DNA of 64,000 bases from NCBI GenBank assembly GCA_963169915.1, contig CAUJEM010000009.1:1-64000 (forward strand). Direction: 5' to 3'. Position numbers and translations under genes: made by a program. This DNA comes from Myxococcota bacterium. GTDB taxonomy: Bacteria; Myxococcota_A; Polyangia; Polyangiales; Polyangiaceae. The number at the start of each line of letters is the position of its first letter. Position 1 is the stretch's first letter. Shown here in pieces: positions 3 through 42,816 of this stretch. The notes below the pieces were generated by a model. It was not told where the DNA came from, searched no databases, and saw only the letters and a list, made by a program, of their open reading frames with translations.

Positions 3-1295
3 GGTGACGACGGCGGGTGGCCCGGCGCGGACTACGGCGAGCCATGCTCGGACAACAGCGACTGCAAGTCGCAACAGTGCAGCAACATCAGCCAGGGCAC
101 GCTGCACCTCGTGTGCACTCAGCCTTGTACGGATGGAGCTGCTTGTCCTACGGGTTCGTACTGTGCGTTCCTCCCCGGGGCTGGGTATAGCTGCGTCCCG
201 GATCAGAACACGCAGTGCGGCGTGTGCACGGACGACGCGAGTTGCGGCGCCGTGGGAGATCTGTGCGTCGTCAGTCCCAAGGGCGACCGCTTCTGCGCCC
301 GCGATTGCTCGTTCGCCGAGGACTGCCCGAGCGGCTTCAGCTGCGTCACGCCCGAGGCCTACGGCGCCACGCCACCTACGGGGACGGATCCAGGCGCCAC
401 TCGGGAACGCAAGCTGTGCGTCCCAGACGGCGGGGAGTCCTGCGCCTGCACGGAGGCGCGCAACGGCGCCACGCGCGTCTGCAGTCAGACGTCCGGCGGC
501 ATCACCTGCGGAGGGACGGAGACCTGCAACGGCACCTCCGGGACCTGGGAGGGCTGTACGGCCAGCACGCCGCAGGCGGAGCAGTGTGACGGCGCGGACA
601 ACGACTGTGATGGCGTCGTCGACAACGGCGATCCTGCGACCCTGTGCGGCGAGCTCGGGAACCCGTCGAACGCGAGCTGGGCGTGCACCAGCGGCACCTG
701 CTTGCCCGAGTGCAGCGCGGGCTTCGTCCGCTACCCGGCCGCGCTGCCCCCGGAGGCAGGGTGCCCCTGCGAGGTGGGGGAGCCCACCTCGAACGACACC
801 TGCGCCTCGGCCACGAGCGCCGGCTCCGTCGCGGAGAGCGCCGCTCAGCCGCTCACGCTGACGGGGCGCCTCTCAGGGGACACGGACGTGGACTGGTACC
901 GCTTCGACACGGTCGACGATGGTCCCACCACGGGGGGCAACGGCTACCACGTGAAGATCCGCTTCGTCACCAACCCGAATGACGAGTTCATCTTCGACGT
1001 CATTCGCGGCGGGACCTGCGCCGATCCCGACGCCGCGCACTCCTCCCTCGTCGAGTACACCTGGTGTGTGGACGGCACCGGGTCGCCCACGCGTGGGCAG
1101 GGTGCTTGCAGCGCCACCGGGACGCCCGGCTGCCAGTCGCAGAGCTCCACGTACCTCGTGAGGGTCAAGCGCAAGCCGGGCGTTGCCGGGAGCTGCGCGC
1201 GCTACATGCTCGAGGCCTACGCCCACAAGCCCAGCGGCGCGGCAGACTGTGATTTCTCCAGCGCCACCGGTCAGTGCGACGTGCACCCCAACTAG
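3..1295 (+). CDS. Cys-rich secreted protein with MopE-like motif and PPC-like domain (5' end missing)
   Basis: The frame is open from the first bases of the window, so the real start lies upstream; 430 residues are visible. The first half is rich in regularly spaced cysteines (for example CSDNSDCKSQQCS), typical of extracellular disulfide-bonded proteins. Near nt 580-640 it carries CDGADNDCDGVVDNGD, the Asp-rich motif of the MopE/putative metal-binding family common in Myxococcota. The last third (about nt 780-1240) has GRLSGDTDVDWYRFDT, resembling the bacterial pre-peptidase C-terminal (PPC) fold, a beta-sandwich often appended to exported proteins. It ends 22 bp before the convergent Nudix gene. 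An envelope or extracellular role is inferred; no enzyme motif was seen. Confidence 0.8.
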   Translation, partial: GDDGGWPGADYGEPCSDNSDCKSQQCSNISQGTLHLVCTQPCTDGAACPTGSYCAFLPGAGYSCVPDQNTQCGVCTDDASCGAVGDLCVVSPKGDRFCARDCSFAEDCPSGFSCVTPEAYGATPPTGTDPGATRERKLCVPDGGESCACTEARNGATRVCSQTSGGITCGGTETCNGTSGTWEGCTASTPQAEQCDGADNDCDGVVDNGDPATLCGELGNPSNASWACTSGTCLPECSAGFVRYPAALPPEAGCPCEVGEPTSNDTCASATSAGSVAESAAQPLTLTGRLSGDTDVDWYRFDTVDDGPTTGGNGYHVKIRFVTNPNDEFIFDVIRGGTCADPDAAHSSLVEYTWCVDGTGSPTRGQGACSATGTPGCQSQSSTYLVRVKRKPGVAGSCARYMLEAYAHKPSGAADCDFSSATGQCDVHPN

Positions 1296-26592: not shown

Positions 26593-27837
26593 TCAGGGCT
26601 GGCTCGAGCTGCTGGCGCTCACGTCCGCGCTCGCCCGCACGCTGACGCTGACGCTGGCGGAGGCCGCGCCCGCGGCCTTGAGATCCGCCGCGAAATCCAG
26701 GCCATAGCGGGCGAGGCACCCAGCAGAGCCCGTGATGTCCGCCGCGACGGTCGTCGCGCTGGACGCCACGCTCGTCGCCGCGTCGACCGCCAAGCGCCCG
26801 CGGCTCAGCACCGCCAGCACCTTGGGGAGGTTGGCCTGGAGCGTGCTGGTGAGCCGCGCCGAGCCGCCCGCTTGGACCTCGATGGTGGGCGGAGAGCACT
26901 CCGCCTCGAACTTGCCCCGCCCGTCGCACGCCGCTTCGCAGTTGGCGTCGAGCTCGCAGCTTGGCGGGTCGAGCTTGCCCTCGCAGCGCGGCGCGGAGGC
27001 GGTGCCTTCACAGCTCCCCTTGCACGTGGCCTCGGCGCCGCACGTCACCTGCGTGTTGGCCGCGAGCTGGCACTCCCCGGTGCAGGTGCCCTGGCACTCA
27101 CCCGCGCAGCTCCCGGTGGCGGTGCCGCCGGTGCACGTGCCCTCGCAGGTCCCGGCGCAGGTGGCGCCGCTGACCGCCTGCCCGTCGCACTGCCCGTCGC
27201 AGCTGCCCGCGCAAGACCCACGGAAGCTGCCCGAGCACTGGCCCTCGCAGGTGGCGGAGCACGTCCCCTGGCAGTTGGCCTTCACGCTCGCCGAGCCCTG
27301 GCAGCTCGCGCCCGCCGAGCACACGCCGTCGCACTGGACGCTGAGCTCGCCGGGCGTGCAGCGCGCCTCGACGGTGCCGGGGTCACAGGCGCCGTTCACC
27401 GCGCACTTGCTCTCGCACGAGAACTGCGCCTGAGCGTTCAGGCTGCACCGGCCGCCCGCCACCGTGAACTGGATGGCGCCGGCAGCGCTGATCTCCGCGC
27501 GCAGGGCGGCGGAGGCGGCCGTGCACGCCGCGGTCACCTCGTCGTCCGTGGGCGCCGCGGGGTTGGCGATGGGCGCCGGGGTGCCCCCGAGGTCCGTCGT
27601 GAGGGCGGTGCAGGCCACGGCGAGATCCGCCTTCATCTGCCCGGAGACCGCCACCAGGGCGTCCACCGAGCCGGTCAGGGCGTCCGCGTTGGCCGCGATG
27701 CCGGCCTCGCAGCTGGTGGCCTGCTCCAAGGACTCGCACCCCGGCGTGAGCAGCCCGAGCCCCAACAGACAGAGGCCGGCTTGCAGCGTGCGAGCAGGGA
27801 ACAGGCGGAAGGCTCGAGAGCGGGGGGCGAGGCGCAT
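26593..27837 (-). CDS. Lipoprotein with C-x3-C tandem repeats
   Basis: 414 residues from the ATG at 27837, which has a GGAG site 6 nt upstream; an in-frame extension to 27933 is rejected. The signal ends LLTPGC, a non-canonical lipobox. The middle holds 36 cysteines in all, many in the regular pattern C-x3-C-x3-C (for example CQGTCSATCEGQC and CAGECQGTCTGEC) with Gly/Thr/Glu spacers, giving a low-complexity, knob-like disulfide stack. N- and C-terminal parts are Ala-rich, predicted helical, without cysteines. I do not recognise the function. Cysteine content and signal point to the envelope or cell surface. Confidence 0.78.
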   Translation of the reverse strand: MRLAPRSRAFRLFPARTLQAGLCLLGLGLLTPGCESLEQATSCEAGIAANADALTGSVDALVAVSGQMKADLAVACTALTTDLGGTPAPIANPAAPTDDEVTAACTAASAALRAEISAAGAIQFTVAGGRCSLNAQAQFSCESKCAVNGACDPGTVEARCTPGELSVQCDGVCSAGASCQGSASVKANCQGTCSATCEGQCSGSFRGSCAGSCDGQCDGQAVSGATCAGTCEGTCTGGTATGSCAGECQGTCTGECQLAANTQVTCGAEATCKGSCEGTASAPRCEGKLDPPSCELDANCEAACDGRGKFEAECSPPTIEVQAGGSARLTSTLQANLPKVLAVLSRGRLAVDAATSVASSATTVAADITGSAGCLARYGLDFAADLKAAGAASASVSVSVRASADVSASSSSQP

Positions 27838-27998
27838 GGGGAACTCCGGGGGCGAAAAGAAAGAGGAACTGCGGGAGAGCCGGCGAGGGTGTCCGCGCGT
27901 GGGCTCCCACCGGGGCTGGCCCCAGTGTAGCACGGGCCGCCGCGACGTCCCGCCGGCGCCCCTTCCCCAGGGCTGCGTTTCGTTCTAAGGGCGGCGGC

Positions 27999-28532
27999 AT
28001 GGTAGCTTGGCGAAGCGTCGTGGTGGTGCTGGGGCTCGCGGTCGGGGCGGTCGGCTGTGGCGCCAGCCCGTCGGCTGGGCCCGGCGCGCCGGAGTCCAGC
28101 GGCTCCTTCGCGCCGGATTTCGAGCTCGACACGCTCGACGGCAAGAGCGTGCGGCTGTCGGATCATCTCGGCAAGGACGTCATCCTCTTGGACTTCTGGG
28201 CGACCTTCTGCGACCCCTGCCTCGCCGCCATGCCGCACCTGGAGCAGGTGTACCAGGCCCGCCGGGCTCAGGGCTTGGTCGTGCTCGGGATCTCCATCGA
28301 TGGTCCGCAGAGCATGGCTGCCGTGCGTGGAGAGGTGCAGAAGCTCGGGTTGAGCTTCCCCATCTTGCTGGACCAGGAGTCGCGCGTGGTGGCGCTCTAC
28401 AACCCGCGCACGAGCGCCCCCTACAGCGTCCTCATCGGTCGAGACGGGCGGATCATCAAGAAGAAGGACGGCTACGTCACGGGCGACGCCGCCACGCTCG
28501 AGCGTGATCTCGACGCCGCGCTGGCGCGCTGA
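27999..28532 (+). CDS. Thioredoxin-like lipoprotein (TlpA/ResA type)
   Basis: 177 residues. Lipoprotein signal with VGAVGCG, then the redoxin fold: FAPDFELDTLDGKSVRL, DFWATFCDPCLAAMPHL with the active-site pair CDPC, and the cis-Pro strand as APYSVLIG. Such proteins reduce or oxidise disulfides outside the cytoplasm, for example in cytochrome c maturation or in protein quality control. It is divergent from the C-x3-C lipoprotein and 27 bp from the next, convergent redoxin gene. Confidence 0.9.
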   Translation: MVAWRSVVVVLGLAVGAVGCGASPSAGPGAPESSGSFAPDFELDTLDGKSVRLSDHLGKDVILLDFWATFCDPCLAAMPHLEQVYQARRAQGLVVLGISIDGPQSMAAVRGEVQKLGLSFPILLDQESRVVALYNPRTSAPYSVLIGRDGRIIKKKDGYVTGDAATLERDLDAALAR

Positions 28533-28559
28533 AGCGGCGGCAACGCGCGGCGGCCTGCC

Positions 28560-29264
28560 TCAGTCTTCGAGGGCCGTGTCCACCGCACGCCAAATGGCAC
28601 CCGGCGAGCCGCCGTCCACGACGCTCAGGATGCGCATGGTGCGCGTGTCGATGATGATGTTGGCGGGGAAAAATCCGAAGCTCCGCCTCAGCGCGTTGAT
28701 CTTCTCCGCGCTGTCGATGGCGATGGGGTGGTAGAGCTCGTAGCGGGACGCCCAGGCGACCAAGTCCTTCAGCTGAGCCGGGTTGGCTTGGGAGTCTTGA
28801 GCAAAAATCTCGAGGTAGCGGTAGCCGAAGGGCGCGCGCTCGTCCGCCTCCTCCGAGATGGGGCGCGCGTACTTCACGCCGTTGAAGGAGCCGCCGGTGT
28901 GCTCCGCACGGCAGTAGCCGCACCAGCCCGCCGTCACGTTGATGTGCAGGACCCGCGTGCCGCCGTTGTTCCCCTGGGCGTCGAGGGGATCGTAGTAGTC
29001 CGCGAGGCTGATGGGGGACAGCTTGCTCGGGTCGTAGTCGACCGCTGCGGCGTCCGGGAAGCCCATGAAGTCCAGGTTCGGGATGGTGGAGCCGATGGAG
29101 AAGCCGTAGGGGGCGTCCGGGTAGGGGAGCGCAGCGGTGGAGCGGCGGCCCCCTGGCACGGCTTGGCTCCCGTCGTCGAAGGCGACGGTGTCCATGGGCT
29201 CGGGCCCGCACCCCGTGGCTCCGAACGCGAGGGCTGCGCCGAGGAGAGTGGAGAGGATTCGCAT
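28560..29264 (-). CDS. Redoxin-domain lipoprotein (GWCGYC)
   Basis: 234 residues. Lipoprotein signal with GATGCG. After an about 90-residue lead segment comes HINVTAGWCGYCRAEH, a thioredoxin-like active site with CGYC, then the fold-closing FFPANIIIDTRTMRIL. The relation to TlpA is distant. It lacks the common WC-x-P spacing but retains both cysteines. It shares a divergent 106-bp region with the 47-Cys lipoprotein at 29371, making a functional link plausible (inference). Confidence 0.85.
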   Translation of the reverse strand: MRILSTLLGAALAFGATGCGPEPMDTVAFDDGSQAVPGGRRSTAALPYPDAPYGFSIGSTIPNLDFMGFPDAAAVDYDPSKLSPISLADYYDPLDAQGNNGGTRVLHINVTAGWCGYCRAEHTGGSFNGVKYARPISEEADERAPFGYRYLEIFAQDSQANPAQLKDLVAWASRYELYHPIAIDSAEKINALRRSFGFFPANIIIDTRTMRILSVVDGGSPGAIWRAVDTALED

Positions 29265-29370
29265 TGGTTCAGTCTCCCAGCAGTGGTAAGCGGCGCTGGT
29301 TCGCAGGGCGCCTAGAGCTTAGGGGTCTGCGGTTCAGCGTCAAGCGCCCCAGGGAGAAGGAAGCCGAGAG

Positions 29371-30543
29371 ATGAATCGATGGACGAAGTGGCTGGGGCGC
29401 TCGGGCTTGCTCTTGGCGGTGGCCCTTGGGGGGGCGGCCTTGCCCGTCACGGGCTGCAGCAGCGGCGAGGCCACCTGCGACGGAGTGCAGATCCGGGGTC
29501 GGTGTGAGCAGAAGTGCGACCCTGCCAAGTGCACCGAGGGCTTCGAGTGCGTCGGGAACGCCTGCCGCGCGCGCTGCGTCCATGACTTCGAGTGCGGCGC
29601 GGGCGAGGCCTGCCTCAACACCTACGAGGACACCACGCGGGTCCCGTCGCCGCACTGCTTCCCCTACCTCGAGGGAGAGGTGACGGGTCAAGGGACCGGG
29701 TGCGCGTCGGACGGGGAGTGCGACACTCGACGTGGCTGGGCGTGTGTCGCGGCGACGTGCCAGCGCGTCTGCAAGAGCCACTCGGACTGCCCGAACGGCT
29801 CCTGCACCGGTCAGGCCGAGGGGCGTTGGCTGTGTGAGCCGGACACCGTGGACCACGCTCCGGGGCGCTATGGAACCACCTGTCCGAACGGCGCCGCGGA
29901 CTGCGACGCGAGCGGCGGCTTCGTCTGCATCGGCCGCGGCATCCAAGATCCGGACAACTACTGCTCGAAGAAGGGCTGCACGGCGGACTCGGAGTGCCCG
30001 AGCGGCCTCTACTGTGGAGCCTATGGAGAGGGGACCCGGGCTTGCCTGAAGCGGGACTACTGCCGGAGCTGCGAGACGGATCTCGACTGTCGTGGGCTGC
30101 CGAACCAGGTGTGCGCGCAGGACGCAGGGGGCAAGAAAATCTGCACCCAGCGCTGTGATCCGAAGGTGGCGCTGCCCTGCCCCTGGGGCGCGGCGTCGAC
30201 GTGCGCGGAGACCGACCCCACCGTGGGTGGACCGACGTGCAGCCACGCGTTTGGCTCCTGCGTGGGCAGCGGCAAGGCCTGTGAGCCCTGCACGGCCAAC
30301 GAGGACTGCGGATCCCAGGGGGCCTGCGTCGCCATCCTGGGTTCCTTGGAGCGCCTGTGCATCGACATGAGCTTCACCTGCGAGAAGAAGGAGGACTGCC
30401 CGCTGTCCCCGGATGGGCTCCAGATGGACTGCCTGAGCGCCGACGCCGCGGCGGAGAGCGATCTGTACAAACGCTGCGTCCCACCGAACATCTACGAGGG
30501 GAGCCTCAGCGTCGGGGGCGCTCGTTACAGCTGCTGGCAGTAG
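29371..30543 (+). CDS. Cys-rich lipoprotein (47 cysteines)
   Basis: 390 residues. Signal ending PVTGCSS (lipobox TGC) leaves one lipid-bearing cysteine and 46 others, an even number suitable for complete disulfide pairing. The body is built of short repeats such as C-x5-C-x(5-6)-C (for example CTADSECPSGLYC, CTANEDCGSQGAC), like the Dickkopf/EGF-like small modules found in many myxobacterial surface proteins. A GGAGAAGGAAG stretch precedes the ATG. The function is unknown. Divergent from a redoxin lipoprotein that could be its folding partner. Confidence 0.82.
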   Translation: MNRWTKWLGRSGLLLAVALGGAALPVTGCSSGEATCDGVQIRGRCEQKCDPAKCTEGFECVGNACRARCVHDFECGAGEACLNTYEDTTRVPSPHCFPYLEGEVTGQGTGCASDGECDTRRGWACVAATCQRVCKSHSDCPNGSCTGQAEGRWLCEPDTVDHAPGRYGTTCPNGAADCDASGGFVCIGRGIQDPDNYCSKKGCTADSECPSGLYCGAYGEGTRACLKRDYCRSCETDLDCRGLPNQVCAQDAGGKKICTQRCDPKVALPCPWGAASTCAETDPTVGGPTCSHAFGSCVGSGKACEPCTANEDCGSQGACVAILGSLERLCIDMSFTCEKKEDCPLSPDGLQMDCLSADAAAESDLYKRCVPPNIYEGSLSVGGARYSCWQ

Positions 30544-30567
30544 GCCGTAGGCCCTGCGCGCGCGGGC

Positions 30568-32481
30568 TCAGAAGCGCACCGTGGCGTCGAGCCGCGCGCC
30601 CTCGAAGGCCGGGAAGACCCGGCAGACGCCGGCCACGCAGCGCAACGCGCCCCGACGCTGGCCGACGAACAGCCCCACGCTAGTGTCGCTCGTGAAGCGC
30701 CACCCGAGCTGACCGTTGAAGTAGGTCGTCGGTACCCCGGGGGCGGTGGAGTACTCCACGCCGAGCGCCGCGGACAGGTGCGGCGCCCACTCGAAGCCCG
30801 TCAGGTGTTGCCCCTCGACCCACGGCGTGTGGGTCAGCTCCGTCTCCATGCGGCGGCGGTGCCACCCTTGGAGCTGCAGGGACCACGGACCACCCAGTGA
30901 GCGGATGGCGTCGTAGCGGAGATAGGTCTCTCGATAGTACGTCTGGGTGGTGCCGCCGGGGACCCGCAGCTCGAGCTCCGCCGTCTCATCCAGGCGCACG
31001 CCGGTGGTGACGGTGACGCGCGATCTTCCGCGCTCGGAGCTGAGCTCGACCCCGCTGGCAACATCCCAGATCCGGTTCTCCTGGGCCGCCGTGGTCTCGC
31101 AGGCCTCGTTGCTGACGCTCTCCGCCCAGGTGTGGCTCCGCCCCACCCAAGCGAAGACGGACCGCTGGGCTGCCACCTCCACGTCCGCGCGTAGCCGCCC
31201 GCCGGTGACGCAGGTGTTGTAGTGATTGAAGGTGGAGTCCACCCACAGGGCCTCCGTGGTGGGGGGGGCGCTGTACTGCACGAGGGAGAACTCGCTGGCG
31301 CGGCCGAGGGCGACGTTGGCCGAGAGCGGGAAAAAGCGACGATAGTGGCGGGCCTCGGCGCTCAGGGTGACGGGAGCGAGCGCCAGCGAGCCGCTGAGGT
31401 AGGCCGCGTAGCCGAGGCTGGTGCCGGCGCCCTGCGCCAGGGTGTGCTCGCCGTCCCGACGCATGTCCTGGAAGGCGAGCTCCGCGTAGAGCGAGCCGGC
31501 CTCGCCCAGGCGCGGCAGCTCCACGGACTGTGAGCCCGTGAAGAGGGTGTTCGAGCTGCGGATCGCGTCGTGGCTCAGGGGAGCCTGGCGGATGAGCAGG
31601 GAGCCCTGGGTCCCCAGCTTCACCGAGCGCGACGCGAGCTCCACCTGCGCGGCCGCCAGGCGATCTGGCGCGTAGGTGCAGGTGGCGAAGGTCTGACAGT
31701 CTCCCGTGTCCTGGACGAAGTCCGTGGGGAGCGCGCGGGGCATGCCGGCCTCCGTGAGGCGGACCCAGCTTGGCAGCACGTCGTCGCTGACCCCGAGCCA
31801 GCGACCGCTCGCGTCGTCGAGGCGCAGCGGGTTCATGGAGCCGCCGAGCGCGGTGAGCCGGAGGCGCAGCGGACCAGCCTGGGTCTTGGCTCCCAGGCGG
31901 ACGCCCCGCACCGTGGTGTCACTCGACAGCTCGTCGAGCTTCCGCACGCTGAGCACCAGCCCGCGCCCAAACTGGGCATAGAAATCACCCACGTCGACCT
32001 CGAGGTCTCGCCCCTGCCACGCGAAGTACCATTTCGCGGGGTAGGCCCAGTTTTGATAGCGGTTCGAGAGCTCGACGCCGGCCTCGTCGAGCTTGCGACG
32101 GAAGTACTCTGGATCGGGCGTGGCCCCCGGAGGTAGGGGGTGGGGGCGCAGGGCCACCATGTCGAGCGCGAGCTGCGTCGCGTTGGGGGAGCGAAAGAAC
32201 CACGCGTTGTCGAGCCGCAGCCCGAGCCGGAAGCTGCCCCACGTGGCCTGGAGATTGAGGCGGTTGTACCAGAAGCCCCAGTCGTCGTTGGCGATCGTCC
32301 CGATGCGGTTGGGGCGGGTGTCGCGGTTGTCGAAGTTGTACGACAGGCTCGTCACCTCCGTGACGTCGACGTTGACGGGCTCATCCCCTAGCGCGCCGGC
32401 CTCCAGCGCCAGCGCCGAGGCCGGGCCGCCCAGCAGCGCGCTCGCCGTGGCGAGGCCGACCCAGCGCGCCGGCCAGCTCAC
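30568..32481 (-). CDS. Outer-membrane beta-barrel protein candidate
   Basis: 637 residues from the GTG at 32481, chosen because its GTGA overlaps the upstream redoxin stop by 4 nt and it exposes a clean signal peptide ending GPASALA. A start at 32517 would overlap by 40 nt. The mature protein has many alternating strands with Tyr/Trp/Arg (DWGFWYNRLNLQATW, FRLGLRLDNAWFF) and ends in ...LDATVRF, the C-terminal aromatic of outer-membrane barrels. It resembles DUF6029-like proteins. The genetic link to a thioredoxin-like lipoprotein and a Gly-rich lipoprotein suggests a joint envelope complex (inference). Confidence 0.78.
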   Translation of the reverse strand: MSWPARWVGLATASALLGGPASALALEAGALGDEPVNVDVTEVTSLSYNFDNRDTRPNRIGTIANDDWGFWYNRLNLQATWGSFRLGLRLDNAWFFRSPNATQLALDMVALRPHPLPPGATPDPEYFRRKLDEAGVELSNRYQNWAYPAKWYFAWQGRDLEVDVGDFYAQFGRGLVLSVRKLDELSSDTTVRGVRLGAKTQAGPLRLRLTALGGSMNPLRLDDASGRWLGVSDDVLPSWVRLTEAGMPRALPTDFVQDTGDCQTFATCTYAPDRLAAAQVELASRSVKLGTQGSLLIRQAPLSHDAIRSSNTLFTGSQSVELPRLGEAGSLYAELAFQDMRRDGEHTLAQGAGTSLGYAAYLSGSLALAPVTLSAEARHYRRFFPLSANVALGRASEFSLVQYSAPPTTEALWVDSTFNHYNTCVTGGRLRADVEVAAQRSVFAWVGRSHTWAESVSNEACETTAAQENRIWDVASGVELSSERGRSRVTVTTGVRLDETAELELRVPGGTTQTYYRETYLRYDAIRSLGGPWSLQLQGWHRRRMETELTHTPWVEGQHLTGFEWAPHLSAALGVEYSTAPGVPTTYFNGQLGWRFTSDTSVGLFVGQRRGALRCVAGVCRVFPAFEGARLDATVRF

Positions 32482-33104
32482 TGTCGCGCGTCGAGCTCGG
32501 CTTCGATGTACGGCCACATGACGCTCGCTTGGTTGCCCTCGAAGACGCGCAGGACGCGCATGGTCTTCGGATCCACGATGAGGTTGAGCGGCGCGAGCGC
32601 GGCGCGGTCGCTGCCCCCGAGCGAGTACTCGGGATCGAGCACGAGGGGATGGTCGCTCTTGAACTCCGTCCCCCAGGCCGCCAGATGTGAGGGCTTGGCG
32701 GCGCTGCGGCTGGCGTCCTCCGCGATGGCGGTGAGCCAGCGTAGCCCCCGCGGCTTCAAGACGCTCAGGTGCGAGGGCAGCTCACGGTGCTCGATCTTGC
32801 AGTTTTGACACCACAGCGCGGCGGTGTTGAGCACGAGCAGCCGCGCCCCAGGATCCGCGAAGAGCTGCGCGAGCTGGACCTCTTCGAGGGCGTCCGGGGC
32901 GTAGCCGGCAGCCTTGGGATCCAGCCAGCCACGAAACTTGAGGTTGTCTACCGTGCCCCCGAGCGTCTGAGAGTAAGGGCCTGGCGGATAGCCGGCGCCG
33001 GCGTCCCCAGCGCCGCCGCCCAGCAGCTCCGGGGGGATCTCCGGGGTGTTGGAGCCACAGGCGCCCAGCAGGAGCGCCACGCAGAGCAGAGGCCAGCGGC
33101 TCAT
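32478..33104 (-). CDS. Thioredoxin-like lipoprotein (CQNC)
   Basis: 208 residues from the ATG at 33104, whose ATGA overlaps the upstream gene stop by 4 nt; a longer in-frame reading to 33746 only shadows that gene. Signal with lipobox LLGACGS. The redoxin domain has VLNTAALWCQNCKIEH (active site CQNC) and, later, APLNLIVDPKTMRVLR, very similar in layout to the redoxin lipoprotein at 28560 (both end in a strand IxxDxxTMRIL). The two are probably paralogues. Middle gene of a three-gene operon. Confidence 0.86.
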   Translation of the reverse strand: MSRWPLLCVALLLGACGSNTPEIPPELLGGGAGDAGAGYPPGPYSQTLGGTVDNLKFRGWLDPKAAGYAPDALEEVQLAQLFADPGARLLVLNTAALWCQNCKIEHRELPSHLSVLKPRGLRWLTAIAEDASRSAAKPSHLAAWGTEFKSDHPLVLDPEYSLGGSDRAALAPLNLIVDPKTMRVLRVFEGNQASVMWPYIEAELDARQ

Positions 33105-34036
33105 GGCGCGGCCAGCTTGAGCCCGAAGGTGCCCAACATGGGGATGCCCTCGGCCGGCGTGGTGGTGATGGTCTGACCGTCGTCGGAGACGCGGGCGGTG
33201 CTCACGCGCTGCCAGCCGCCGTAGGGAGCCCACTCTTGGGTGACGTCCACCCCTTGAAGCCAGACCTCGACCGCAGCTCCTGGCGCCCAGCCGGGCTGGT
33301 TGGTGACGCTGAGCCGCGCCGCCGGGCAGAGCTTGGTGAGCACGGGCGCGGTGCCCACGACCAGCTCGAAGCCGAGCGCCGGATCCACGCCGCTGAGCGC
33401 CGCGCCGGGCTTGGCGATGACCGCGCGAAAGCCGCGCTGGTCCACGTCGTAGGTGAGGGTGTCGATGTCCACCTGGGCCGCGCTCCCGAGCTCGAGCGTC
33501 ACCCCGCCCGAGCTGGGGGACGTGCCCGCCGTGAGGGGCGCGCCGGCCTCGAAGGGCGGGAGCCGGAGCGTGGAGAGCCGCCCAAGCTCGAACACGTCCG
33601 TCTCTTGCGAGAGCACGAGGCCGAACTCCGGCGTGGCGAAGCCGATGCCAAACTTGAGCACGGGGAGATCGATCTCGGCGTTGGGCTTGATCTCGATGGC
33701 GCCGTTGCTGCTGGTGGTCCCGACGAGGCACACGGTCAGGCCGCACACTTGCATCAGCTCGCCCCCGACGGGGACCCCGTCCTGGTCGACCAAGGTGGCC
33801 GTCACGGAGCTGACGCGTTGGGGCGTGGCGGCTGAGGTGTAGCCCGGTCCGGGCTTACACGCCCAGGCCGGCGCGCCGCCCTCGCCGCTCTCGCCGCCGC
33901 TCCCTGCGGCGCCAGCGCTCGCGCCGCTCCCTCCCGCTCCCGCGGTGGCGCCGTGGCCGCCCCCCTCTGCACCTCCACCACTGCAGGCGAGCGCGAGCAG
34001 CGCCGCTCCGCCGACGATCGACCAATGATGAGCCAT
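33101..34036 (-). CDS. Lipoprotein with Gly/Ala-rich linker and beta-rich domain
   Basis: 311 residues. Lipobox LALACS, followed by a 40-residue Gly/Ala/Ser/Glu linker that would hold the domain away from the membrane. The folded part (about 60-311) is strand-rich with VTATLVDQDGVPVGGEL, resembling carboxypeptidase-regulatory-like or Ig-type adhesive modules, and has few cysteines. I do not recognise a family. First gene of an operon with the CQNC redoxin and the beta-barrel protein. Confidence 0.75.
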   Translation of the reverse strand: MAHHWSIVGGAALLALACSGGGAEGGGHGATAGAGGSGASAGAAGSGGESGEGGAPAWACKPGPGYTSAATPQRVSSVTATLVDQDGVPVGGELMQVCGLTVCLVGTTSSNGAIEIKPNAEIDLPVLKFGIGFATPEFGLVLSQETDVFELGRLSTLRLPPFEAGAPLTAGTSPSSGGVTLELGSAAQVDIDTLTYDVDQRGFRAVIAKPGAALSGVDPALGFELVVGTAPVLTKLCPAARLSVTNQPGWAPGAAVEVWLQGVDVTQEWAPYGGWQRVSTARVSDDGQTITTTPAEGIPMLGTFGLKLAAP

Positions 34037-40420: not shown

Positions 40421-42283
40421 ATGAACGCGCAGTTGCCCAGGCTTACCGGCTTCGTCTCTTCGTGCTTCGGCGGCGGCCGCCGGTGGCGCCGTGCGTCGCT
40501 CGGGTTCGCGGCGGCGGCGGGGCTCACGGGCCTCTGCGTGACCCCCAGCGCCCAGGCTCAGAGCAGCGGGGCTCTGGACGGGGAATTCTCGGTGCAGCGC
40601 TTCAACCCCGCGCCCGGCAGTCGGAACTTCATCACCACGCGCGGCGTGCGCCACGAGGGCAACATGTCGCTCAGCTTGGGCCTGATGGCCAGCTACGCCT
40701 ACAAGCCCTTCGTCTTGCGGAGCTGTCTGTCGGAGACCAACTGCGACGACGCCAACGCGGTACAGAGGCAAGACATCCCGGTCGTGGAGAGCTTGTTCAC
40801 GGGCGACCTCTGGGGGGCGCTCGTCATCATTCCGCGGCTGCAGGTGTCCCTGCGCGTCCCGGTGACGTACTCGAAGGGGCAGGGGCTCTCGCCCGAAGGG
40901 CGCCCGGCAGTGGACGGGCTGAGCGGCCTGGCCCCCGGCGACGCCGAGCTCGAGGGCAAGTTCCGGTTCTACGGGGAGCCCTCGGACACGATGAACGCAG
41001 GCGTCGCGGTGTTCGCGACGGGACCCCTGGGGCACGCGGTGTCGGAGGGCGCTTACATCGGCGATACCTCGCCGGGGGTCGGCGGGAGGCTCATCTTCGA
41101 CGGGATGTCCGGTCCCTTCTCGGTCGGACTCAACCTCGGGGGGCTCTGGCGCGAGGCCGGCCGCGCCGGCTCGGTGGAGCTCGGCCCAGAGCTGCGGTAC
41201 GGCGTGGCGGCGGGCTACAAGGTCAGCCCCTTGCTGCGGGTCGTGGCCGACGGCTTCGGGAGCACGAAGTTCTCATCCCGCAACGGCACCAACGCGCTGG
41301 AGATCGACGGCGCCGTCCAGGTCACCCCCTCGGGGTCGCCGCTGGTCGTCACGGCGGGAGCCGGGACGGGCGTCGTGCAGGGGGTCGGGGTCCCGTTGGT
41401 CCGGGGCTTCCTCGGCGTGGGGCTCGTGTTCGACCGCCCGGATCAGGACGGGGACGGCATCCCGGACGACGAAGACCAGTGCCCCACGGTGGCCGAGGAC
41501 ATGAACGGCGTCGAGGACAGCGACGGCTGCCCCGAGGGGGATCTCGACAGCGACGGCGATGGCATCCCGGACTCGAAGGACAAGTGCCCGAGCGATCCGG
41601 AGGACCTCGACGGCTTCGAGGACGGGGACGGCTGCCCGGAGCCCGGGGATGGCAGCCCCGCGGTCGTGCCCGTCGCGGATCGCGACAAGGACGGCGTCCC
41701 GGACGAGCGCGACCAGTGCCCGGACGAGCCGGAGGACACCGACGGCTTCCAGGACGAGGACGGCTGCCCAGATCCGGACAACGACGGCGACGGCATCCCG
41801 GACATCAAGGACGAGTGCATCGACGAGCCCGAGACCATGAACGGGTTCGAAGACGAGGACGGCTGCCCCGACGTGGCGCCCAACCAGCCGAAGGCCGCCG
41901 CGCCAGCGCCGAAGCTGGTGGAGGTGACGGCCGAGGGCATCCAGATCCTGCAGCGCGTCGAGTTCGAGAACAACAAGTCCAAGATCAAGGGCAAGCAGAG
42001 CTTCGCGGTGCTGGACGCCGTCGTCGCCGTGCTCAAGTCCAACCCGGGCATCAAGCTCGTGGAGGTCCAGGGCCACACGGACAACAAGGGCGTCGCTGCC
42101 AACAACAAGAAGCTCAGCCAGGAGCGCGCGGAGGCCGTCAAGAAGTACCTCGTCGGCAAGGGCATCGCGGCGGAGCGCCTGACGGCAGTGGGCTACGGGG
42201 ACGAGCAGCCCGTGGCCGACAACAAGACCGACAAAGGGCGCGCCACCAACCGTCGCGTGGAGTTCAAGATCCTCCAGCGATGA
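40421..42283 (+). CDS. OmpA-family protein with thrombospondin type-3-like repeats
   Basis: 620 residues. Signal peptide (ending SAQAQS), a beta-barrel-like segment (about 45-340), then Asp-rich calcium-binding-type repeats (DQDGDGIPDDEDQCP, DSDGDGIPDSKDKCP and others, about 340-485) and a C-terminal OmpA domain (about 505-620) with VEVQGHTDN and ERAEAVKKYLVGKGI, which binds peptidoglycan. Typical of Myxococcota and related groups: an outer-membrane barrel tied to the cell wall by a stiff spacer. The stop overlaps the next ATG by 4 nt. Confidence 0.93.
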   Translation: MNAQLPRLTGFVSSCFGGGRRWRRASLGFAAAAGLTGLCVTPSAQAQSSGALDGEFSVQRFNPAPGSRNFITTRGVRHEGNMSLSLGLMASYAYKPFVLRSCLSETNCDDANAVQRQDIPVVESLFTGDLWGALVIIPRLQVSLRVPVTYSKGQGLSPEGRPAVDGLSGLAPGDAELEGKFRFYGEPSDTMNAGVAVFATGPLGHAVSEGAYIGDTSPGVGGRLIFDGMSGPFSVGLNLGGLWREAGRAGSVELGPELRYGVAAGYKVSPLLRVVADGFGSTKFSSRNGTNALEIDGAVQVTPSGSPLVVTAGAGTGVVQGVGVPLVRGFLGVGLVFDRPDQDGDGIPDDEDQCPTVAEDMNGVEDSDGCPEGDLDSDGDGIPDSKDKCPSDPEDLDGFEDGDGCPEPGDGSPAVVPVADRDKDGVPDERDQCPDEPEDTDGFQDEDGCPDPDNDGDGIPDIKDECIDEPETMNGFEDEDGCPDVAPNQPKAAAPAPKLVEVTAEGIQILQRVEFENNKSKIKGKQSFAVLDAVVAVLKSNPGIKLVEVQGHTDNKGVAANNKKLSQERAEAVKKYLVGKGIAAERLTAVGYGDEQPVADNKTDKGRATNRRVEFKILQR

Positions 42284-42816
42284 GGCGCGTGGGCGCGTGG
42301 CGCGCGAGGGCGTCGGCCGCGGCCGGTGCCCTCTTGCTCCTGGCGTGTGGTGGAGAGGCCCCGCCCGAGGCGCCGGCCTCTGCCGAGCACTGGCTCGTCG
42401 GTGAGCCAGCGCCTGCGTTCTCCCTCCCAGCGCAGGCCGGTGCAGGTCGAGTCACGCTCACGCCGCGGCTGGGGAAGCTGAGCCTGGTGGACTTCTTCGC
42501 CACCTGGTGCGTCCCCTGCGAGCAGGCGTTCTACGCCTACGAGCGGCTCGCGGAGCGCTACGGTGACCGGCTCGAGGTCTTGGCGCTCAGCGTGGACGAG
42601 GACCCCCAAGGGCTCGCGGCGTTCCGTGAGCGGACGGGCGTCGGCTTCGCGGTGGCGTGGGACGAGGCGCGCCGGACGGCCAAGCGCTACGGACCACCGG
42701 GGATCCCCACGGCGTACCTCGTGGATGGGAGCGGGATCGTGCGGGGGGTCCACTCCGGCTTCGTTCCGAGCGACGAGGCCCGGCTCCGCGCCGAAATCGA
42801 CCAATTATTACAGTGA
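42280..42816 (+). CDS. Thioredoxin-like lipoprotein (TlpA type, CVPC)
   Basis: 178 residues from the ATG that overlaps the OmpA stop (ATGA). Lipobox LLLACGG. Redoxin core: APAFSLPAQAG, VDFFATWCVPCEQAF (active site CVPC) and GIPTAYLVDGSG with the cis-Pro. A bona fide TlpA-like periplasmic reductase. Coupling to the OmpA gene suggests it services that cysteine-containing repeat region (repeats carry Cys pairs). Confidence 0.9.
   Translation: MRRVGAWRARASAAAGALLLLACGGEAPPEAPASAEHWLVGEPAPAFSLPAQAGAGRVTLTPRLGKLSLVDFFATWCVPCEQAFYAYERLAERYGDRLEVLALSVDEDPQGLAAFRERTGVGFAVAWDEARRTAKRYGPPGIPTAYLVDGSGIVRGVHSGFVPSDEARLRAEIDQLLQ

Follow-up and report, generated by a model that had tools for sequence, protein, structure and literature searches.

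A conserved gene-linked cassette of thioredoxin-fold proteins and a DUF6029 outer-membrane barrel, and its possible role as a thiol-disulfide relay

Background

Positions 26593-33104 of a 64,000-nucleotide stretch of DNA from a Myxococcota bacterium (the window; contig CAUJEM010000009.1, positions 1 to 64,000) hold genes for two very cysteine-rich proteins, CysA and CysB, among those for three thioredoxin-like redoxins, Tlp1, Tlp2 and Tlp3. Do these genes lie together by chance, or do they serve one process? A sequence-only reading had linked the redoxins to the cysteine-rich proteins, as dedicated disulfide folding or repair. As worded, this was only partly supported: the conserved core is a TlpA-like redoxin and an outer-membrane beta-barrel of family DUF6029, present in many genomes without CysA or CysB. 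The hub missed earlier is this barrel, with its invariant cysteine pair, at 30568-32517. The firm result, drawn from comparison of predicted proteins and gene order, is an outer-membrane thiol cassette that is conserved and whose genes are linked. We propose, with a probability of about 0.45, that the island encodes the form taken in this lineage by a conserved thiol-disulfide relay of the outer membrane, comprising a TlpA-like protein, the cysteine hairpin of the barrel, a surface redoxin and cysteine-rich clients.

Gene content of the island

The two cysteine-rich lipoproteins (36 and 47 Cys) and three redoxins (CDPC, CGYC and CQNC) described previously are all present, together with the barrel and a further lipoprotein, Lp. 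Lipoprotein status was assigned throughout by lipobox pattern.

26593-27837, minus strand: CysA, 414 amino acids, 36 Cys, lipobox at Cys34, CxGxC repeats; predicted lipoprotein
27999-28532, plus strand: Tlp1, 177 amino acids, active site FCDPC; TlpA/ResA-like predicted lipoprotein
28560-29264, minus strand: Tlp2, 234 amino acids, WCGYC; redoxin and predicted lipoprotein, divergent from cysB
29371-30543, plus strand: CysB, 390 amino acids, 47 Cys, lipobox at Cys29; predicted lipoprotein
30568-32481, minus strand: DUF6029 outer-membrane beta-barrel; the open reading frame (ORF) opens at 32517, the likelier start is 32481; 637-649 amino acids
30622-30639, minus strand: C-x4-C hairpin in the last loop of the barrel, C615 and C620 of the 637-residue form, motif RCVAGVCRVFP
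32478-33104, minus strand: Tlp3, 208 amino acids, WCQNC; redoxin and predicted lipoprotein, paralogue of Tlp2
33101-34036, minus strand: Lp, 311-residue predicted lipoprotein with C98-x4-C103; first gene of lp-tlp3-barrel

Neighbouring genes overlap by 4 bp at each of the two successive junctions of lp, tlp3 and the barrel gene, and the three look like a single operon.

The DUF6029 barrel and its cysteine hairpin

The barrel matches DUF6029 (PF19494) with 54.1 bits against a curated cut-off of 27, and the C-terminal C-x-x-G-x-C motif is present; in the library searched, the family name appeared in a single paper. An AlphaFold (AF2) model (pLDDT 89.9, pTM 0.87) has about 24 strands and no plug, and in it the Cys pair forms a short hairpin between the last two strands (hairpin strands 612-616/619-623). 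Judging from strand order, with short even-to-odd turns and long odd-to-even loops, this hairpin would face the extracellular side or the lumen. The C-x4-C pair, near the C-terminus in the motif RGGxRCxGGVCRxFPxFxG, was found in 55/55 aligned barrels of the window's phylum, and it provides the sole cysteines in about 15 of these 55 and in about 18 of the intact Bacteroidota barrels. When a homologue was scanned with the Pfam profile, changing either Cys to Ala cost 7.4 of 45 bits, the largest loss among the positions tried, which indicates that both residues are weighted in the family model. A divergent DUF6029 subgroup (loci L299 and L317-L319) has CTSGICYE replacing CxGGVCR, and contains two additional TlpA-like genes without WCxxC.

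The nearest solved barrels are the usher pores FimD and PapC, with Z of about 16-17 (FimD 16.8; root mean square deviation 5.5, 378 aligned), followed by OccK and AlgE with Z of 14-16. The ushers are alike in barrel architecture, at about 24 strands, and unlike in that the cassette barrel is without plug, usher domains or pilus genes and shares about 10% identity with them. The Pfam scan of the barrel gave no match to the usher family domains, and usher membership is doubtful, the resemblance being one of fold only. A sugar-polymer porin has also been suggested for DUF6029, some Wzi-barrel homologues being HHpred-similar to this family (PMC9603273), and the presence of AlgE among the structural neighbours agrees with that suggestion. 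However, the constant partners of the barrel are redoxins, not OPX proteins or glycosyltransferases. No OPX or sugar genes were recognised beside the barrel, neighbours being judged by size and family only, and polysaccharide export was rejected as highly improbable.

Linkage of the barrel to TlpA-like redoxins in two phyla

DUF6029 occurs in 110/282 genomes of the window's phylum, far more widely than CysA or CysB. Of 50 barrel loci from this phylum, 34 have a TlpA-like gene no more than 600 bp from the barrel, and 46 have either a TlpA-like gene or tlp3 nearby; as background, the 4.2 Mb genome of the window contains about 11 such redoxin genes. In one genome of the phylum the two partners are fused, a single uninterrupted ORF (L089:8583-10769) encoding a signal peptide, a TlpA domain (1.7e-16), a DUF6029 barrel (1.7e-16) and, at the end, the Cys motif.

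Scanning 85,000 species genomes with a DNA pattern of the Cys motif gave at least 119 stretches; among the matches listed, nearly all were from Bacteroidota, with some from Ignavibacteria and Kapabacteria. Where enough upstream sequence was available, a TlpA gene lay within 500 bp of the motif-found barrel in 37/47 cases. Since this set had been selected by the Cys motif, we analysed as a control 40 Bacteroidota barrels found by Pfam profile instead. The Cys pair was present in 39/39 intact barrels, the fortieth being frameshifted, and TlpA adjoined the barrel in 32/40.

The invariant Cys pair, the tight pairing with TlpA-like genes and the fusion would also suit redoxins that form or repair the barrel's own loop disulfide, much as Dsb proteins do for LptD, with the cysteine-rich proteins as separate clients or neighbours. 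In both systems a thiol-disulfide oxidoreductase would serve an outer-membrane barrel, whereas the cassette differs in its dedicated gene-linked redoxins, its single invariant C-x4-C hairpin and the predicted placement of redoxins on both sides of the membrane. Yet a local C-x4-C hairpin bond requires no isomerase, and TlpA-type proteins are usually reductants. Such a maturation role, which leaves the two or three redoxins, the co-occurrence of Omp28 (see below) and the link to CysB unexplained, strikes us as decidedly unlikely.

The redoxins and Lp

Tlp1, Tlp2 and Tlp3 each match a thioredoxin-fold profile and carry CxxC. Tlp1 matches AhpC-TSA (1e-22, Pfam scan), with CxxC and P141 invariant in about 58 homologues, and the W-C-x-x-C of Tlp2 is invariant in 33 sequences. 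Tlp2 and Tlp3 are paralogous (blastp E of about 1e-29) and are the sole members of their family in the window's genome, which is 90.7% complete. The Tlp3 clade has a support of 0.99, and its gene adjoins the barrel in related loci. Tlp1 matches ResA, a Tlp2/3 profile built with relatives matches ResA structures (1.8e-14), and the island redoxins resemble the TlpA/ResA/CcmG (DsbE) proteins in thioredoxin fold, CxxC and membrane or lipid anchor. They differ in that their genes accompany an outer-membrane barrel, not cytochrome c maturation, and in scores far under the curated cut-offs for DsbE and ResA. The CcmG/DsbE model (TIGR00385; cut-off 123) gave 36.9 bits for Tlp1, 17.0 for Tlp2 and 14.7 for Tlp3, and a role in cytochrome c maturation was rejected on these scores. 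The earlier proposal of a dedicated system, as opposed to generic cytochrome c maturation, fits in view of the Tlp1 score; redoxin-assisted folding or repair of cysteine-rich proteins is a possible function of the predicted proteins.

For Lp no Pfam family was found. Both C98 and C103 are kept in 20/20 homologues, and the gene travels with tlp3 in several classes. The genome of the window encodes one DsbD-type and one VKOR-type protein; therefore reducing and oxidising power are both available, and a relay could run in either direction.

A Tlp2-like redoxin domain was also seen near the barrel in proteins of 540-620 amino acids (L070:16932-18599, L268:12123-13913, L272:6920-8785 and L277:12606-14234). 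The first of these, the sole one of the four read beyond the redoxin domain, has haem CxxCH motifs like those of dihaem cytochrome c peroxidase. In another class, Ig-like repeats precede the redoxin domain in proteins that adjoin lp-tlp3-tlp1-barrel (L085:13632-15200 and L103:13221-14834), and a Tlp2-type redoxin at L045:7393-8316 has an inserted CNCVSGVCR that resembles the Cys motif of the barrel.

Omp28, T9SS and the two-sided layout in Bacteroidota

In Bacteroidota the next gene after the barrel is often that for Omp28 (PF11551), a lipoprotein with a CxxCP site in the motif F-T-G-x-x-C-x-x-C-P. Within a sample of 198 genomes the barrel was present in 38/39 of those with Omp28 (Fisher 9e-27); SprA, a marker of the type IX secretion system (T9SS), was found in 54/54 barrel genomes, and the barrel in 0/44 of the genomes without SprA (1.4e-7). 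At least two acidic residues stand at positions +2 to +7 in 41/51 Omp28 sequences, a stretch resembling the surface export signal of Bacteroidetes (PMC5080379). In 55/69 sequences of the TlpA partner the signal region contains no Cys, for which reason this partner is probably soluble in the periplasm. Surface assignments follow sequence patterns. Like Tlp2 and Tlp3, Omp28 is a CxxC thioredoxin-type lipoprotein adjoining and co-occurring with the DUF6029 barrel. Unlike it, these two fail the Omp28 model, giving no match in the Pfam scan at E up to 1, whereas the Bacteroidota barrel neighbours do match it; by position and motif they would have the same genomic role. Nothing about this cassette came up in literature searches covering Omp28 and surface thiol systems.

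Could the barrel instead be a redox-guarded export channel? The large, plug-less barrel would export Cys proteins, kept in a reduced, unfolded state by Tlp1 on the periplasmic side, and Tlp2/3 or Omp28 would oxidise or isomerise them after transit, CysA and CysB being cargo. The likeness of the model to the FimD/PapC translocation pores argues for this, as do redoxins of likely both sides combined with cargo-like cysteine-rich lipoproteins in one cassette. However, unrelated porins such as OccK and AlgE also reach middling-to-high Z, as large barrels do, and the barrel is widespread without CysA and CysB. Every Bacteroidota barrel genome already exports proteins by T9SS, and a cargo conserved across phyla was not found. 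We regard export as unlikely.

The cysteine-rich proteins and their association with the cassette

Loci of the Tlp2/3 family were gathered from the order to which the window belongs, and genes were called with a home-made GC-frame caller; most of the comparison genomes are metagenome-assembled. The recurrent layout consists of an S1 protein, an Mrp ATPase, cysA and cysB, followed by a divergent tlp2-tlp1-barrel, which tlp3-lp joins in the closer relatives of the window. The cysA gene often stands in tandem with cysB, in 11 pairs counted. In 20-kb stretches drawn at random from these genomes, 13/133 genes had a very cysteine-rich gene within 4 kb, against about 21/22 of the Tlp2 genes adjoining the barrel/Tlp1 core (Fisher 4e-16). 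Where a Tlp2 paralogue stood apart from the barrel, no cysteine-rich gene lay within 4 kb, so that redoxins are not generally paired with such genes, and a generic redoxin/Cys-rich pairing was rejected.

An independent profile search placed CysB in 52/144 genomes of the order, all 52 having the Tlp2/3 family against none without it (p 1e-24); the family was detected in 50 of these by the first profile search and in G032 and G069 by refined profiles. Comparison of coordinates by eye put CysB no further than about 4 kb from a Tlp2/3 or barrel match in 49/52 genomes (G032, G092 and G114 were unmatched), and in 24/24 called loci, the Tlp3-labelled cases included, cysB and its redoxin gene are divergent. 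Random association in other genomes, which would have refuted the sequence-only reading, is contradicted by these counts: the association is conserved and specific. A client role for CysA and CysB would be supported by the confinement of CysB to Tlp2/3 genomes, by this divergent arrangement and by the lack of such genes at barrel-free Tlp2.

The CysB alignment (22 homologues) has 28 invariant columns, of which 27 are Cys, and the Cys columns of CysA are conserved in 16 homologues. The AF2 model of CysB (pLDDT 78.5) consists of small disulfide-knot-like units with spaced Cys. A fold search with it gave no significant match, the best being knottin-like fragments at Z 3.0, which is no proof of a new fold, and the Myxo_Cys_RPT model (TIGR04201) gave 15.2 bits, below its cut-off of 25.

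Two other features of the window concern the same kinds of protein. The earlier description of a fourth redoxin (CVPC) coupled to an OmpA gene is correct.

42280-42816, plus strand: CVPC redoxin, AhpC-TSA (3e-17), overlapping by 4 bp the OmpA gene at 40421-42283
111-1295, plus strand: further cysteine-rich ORF with 39 Cys in an open frame that reaches the window edge; weak match to the MopE metal motif

The CxGxC repeats of CysA, the many cysteines and the weak MopE motif in this other cysteine-rich ORF, would suit lipoproteins that bind Cu, Zn or Hg, with redoxins keeping the thiols reduced and the barrel passing the metal. In contrast, CysB is predicted to form the spaced, knot-like units just described, the barrel core occurs without cysteine-rich proteins, and the conserved neighbours in the loci, again judged by size and family only, include no metal transporter or regulator. 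Metal handling thus appears very unlikely.

A proposed thiol-disulfide relay

A periplasmic redoxin, a barrel with a Cys pair, a surface-type redoxin and cysteine-rich lipoproteins combine in one cassette, and a thiol-disulfide relay located at the outer membrane or spanning it would be the simplest single reading of that combination. Its core would be the periplasm-side, TlpA-like Tlp1 and the DUF6029 barrel, whose C-x4-C hairpin is probably redox-active. A second thioredoxin-fold lipoprotein, probably at the surface (Omp28 in Bacteroidota, Tlp2 and Tlp3 here), would swap disulfides with the hairpin. Electrons would pass from an inner-membrane carrier to Tlp1, the barrel Cys pair and the surface redoxin, which would govern the disulfide state of proteins that are secreted or lie at the surface. 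The likeliest clients here would be CysA and CysB, the gene for the latter being divergent from tlp2. The relay, with its direction, clients and physical contacts, is inferred, as are the location of the hairpin and the placement of Tlp2/3 at the surface; as to direction, reduction or isomerisation seems likelier than oxidation. Gene linkage, the TlpA-barrel fusion, the invariant Cys pair, the co-occurrence across genomes and the two-sided layout in Bacteroidota support the proposal.

Porin-cytochrome conduits of the MtrCAB type comprise a periplasmic redox protein, a barrel and a surface redox lipoprotein. The cassette would follow the same logic from periplasm through barrel to surface; it differs in using thiols instead of haems and in having no multihaem protein, and its conduit is proposed only.

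Several points weigh against the relay. The C-x4-C hairpin can be merely structural, and its position in a loop follows from strand order in the model. Surface positions for Tlp2/3, CysA and CysB are predicted from sequence patterns. Tlp1 is a predicted lipoprotein here, unlike the probably soluble TlpA partner of the barrel in Bacteroidota. The T9SS correlation, counted in the Bacteroidota sample, may in part reflect phylogeny. Linkage and co-occurrence indicate a shared process, not electron flow.

Conclusions

We tentatively suggest, as a possible though doubtful extension, that Bacteroidota and the window's phylum have a previously undescribed porin-thioredoxin conduit, in which periplasmic TlpA would plug or dock on the barrel and the Cys hairpin would pass reducing equivalents to surface thioredoxins. 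By what means disulfides form, are reduced or are rearranged beyond the outer membrane is an open question, and we know of no electron carrier there. If the conduit is real, the cell would control disulfides beyond its outer membrane. The occurrence of the cassette in two phyla makes it a concrete, genetically tractable candidate for surface disulfide control. A function is thereby proposed for DUF6029 and Omp28; in Bacteroidota both are tied to genomes with T9SS, and in the order of the window to cysteine-rich, predicted surface lipoproteins.

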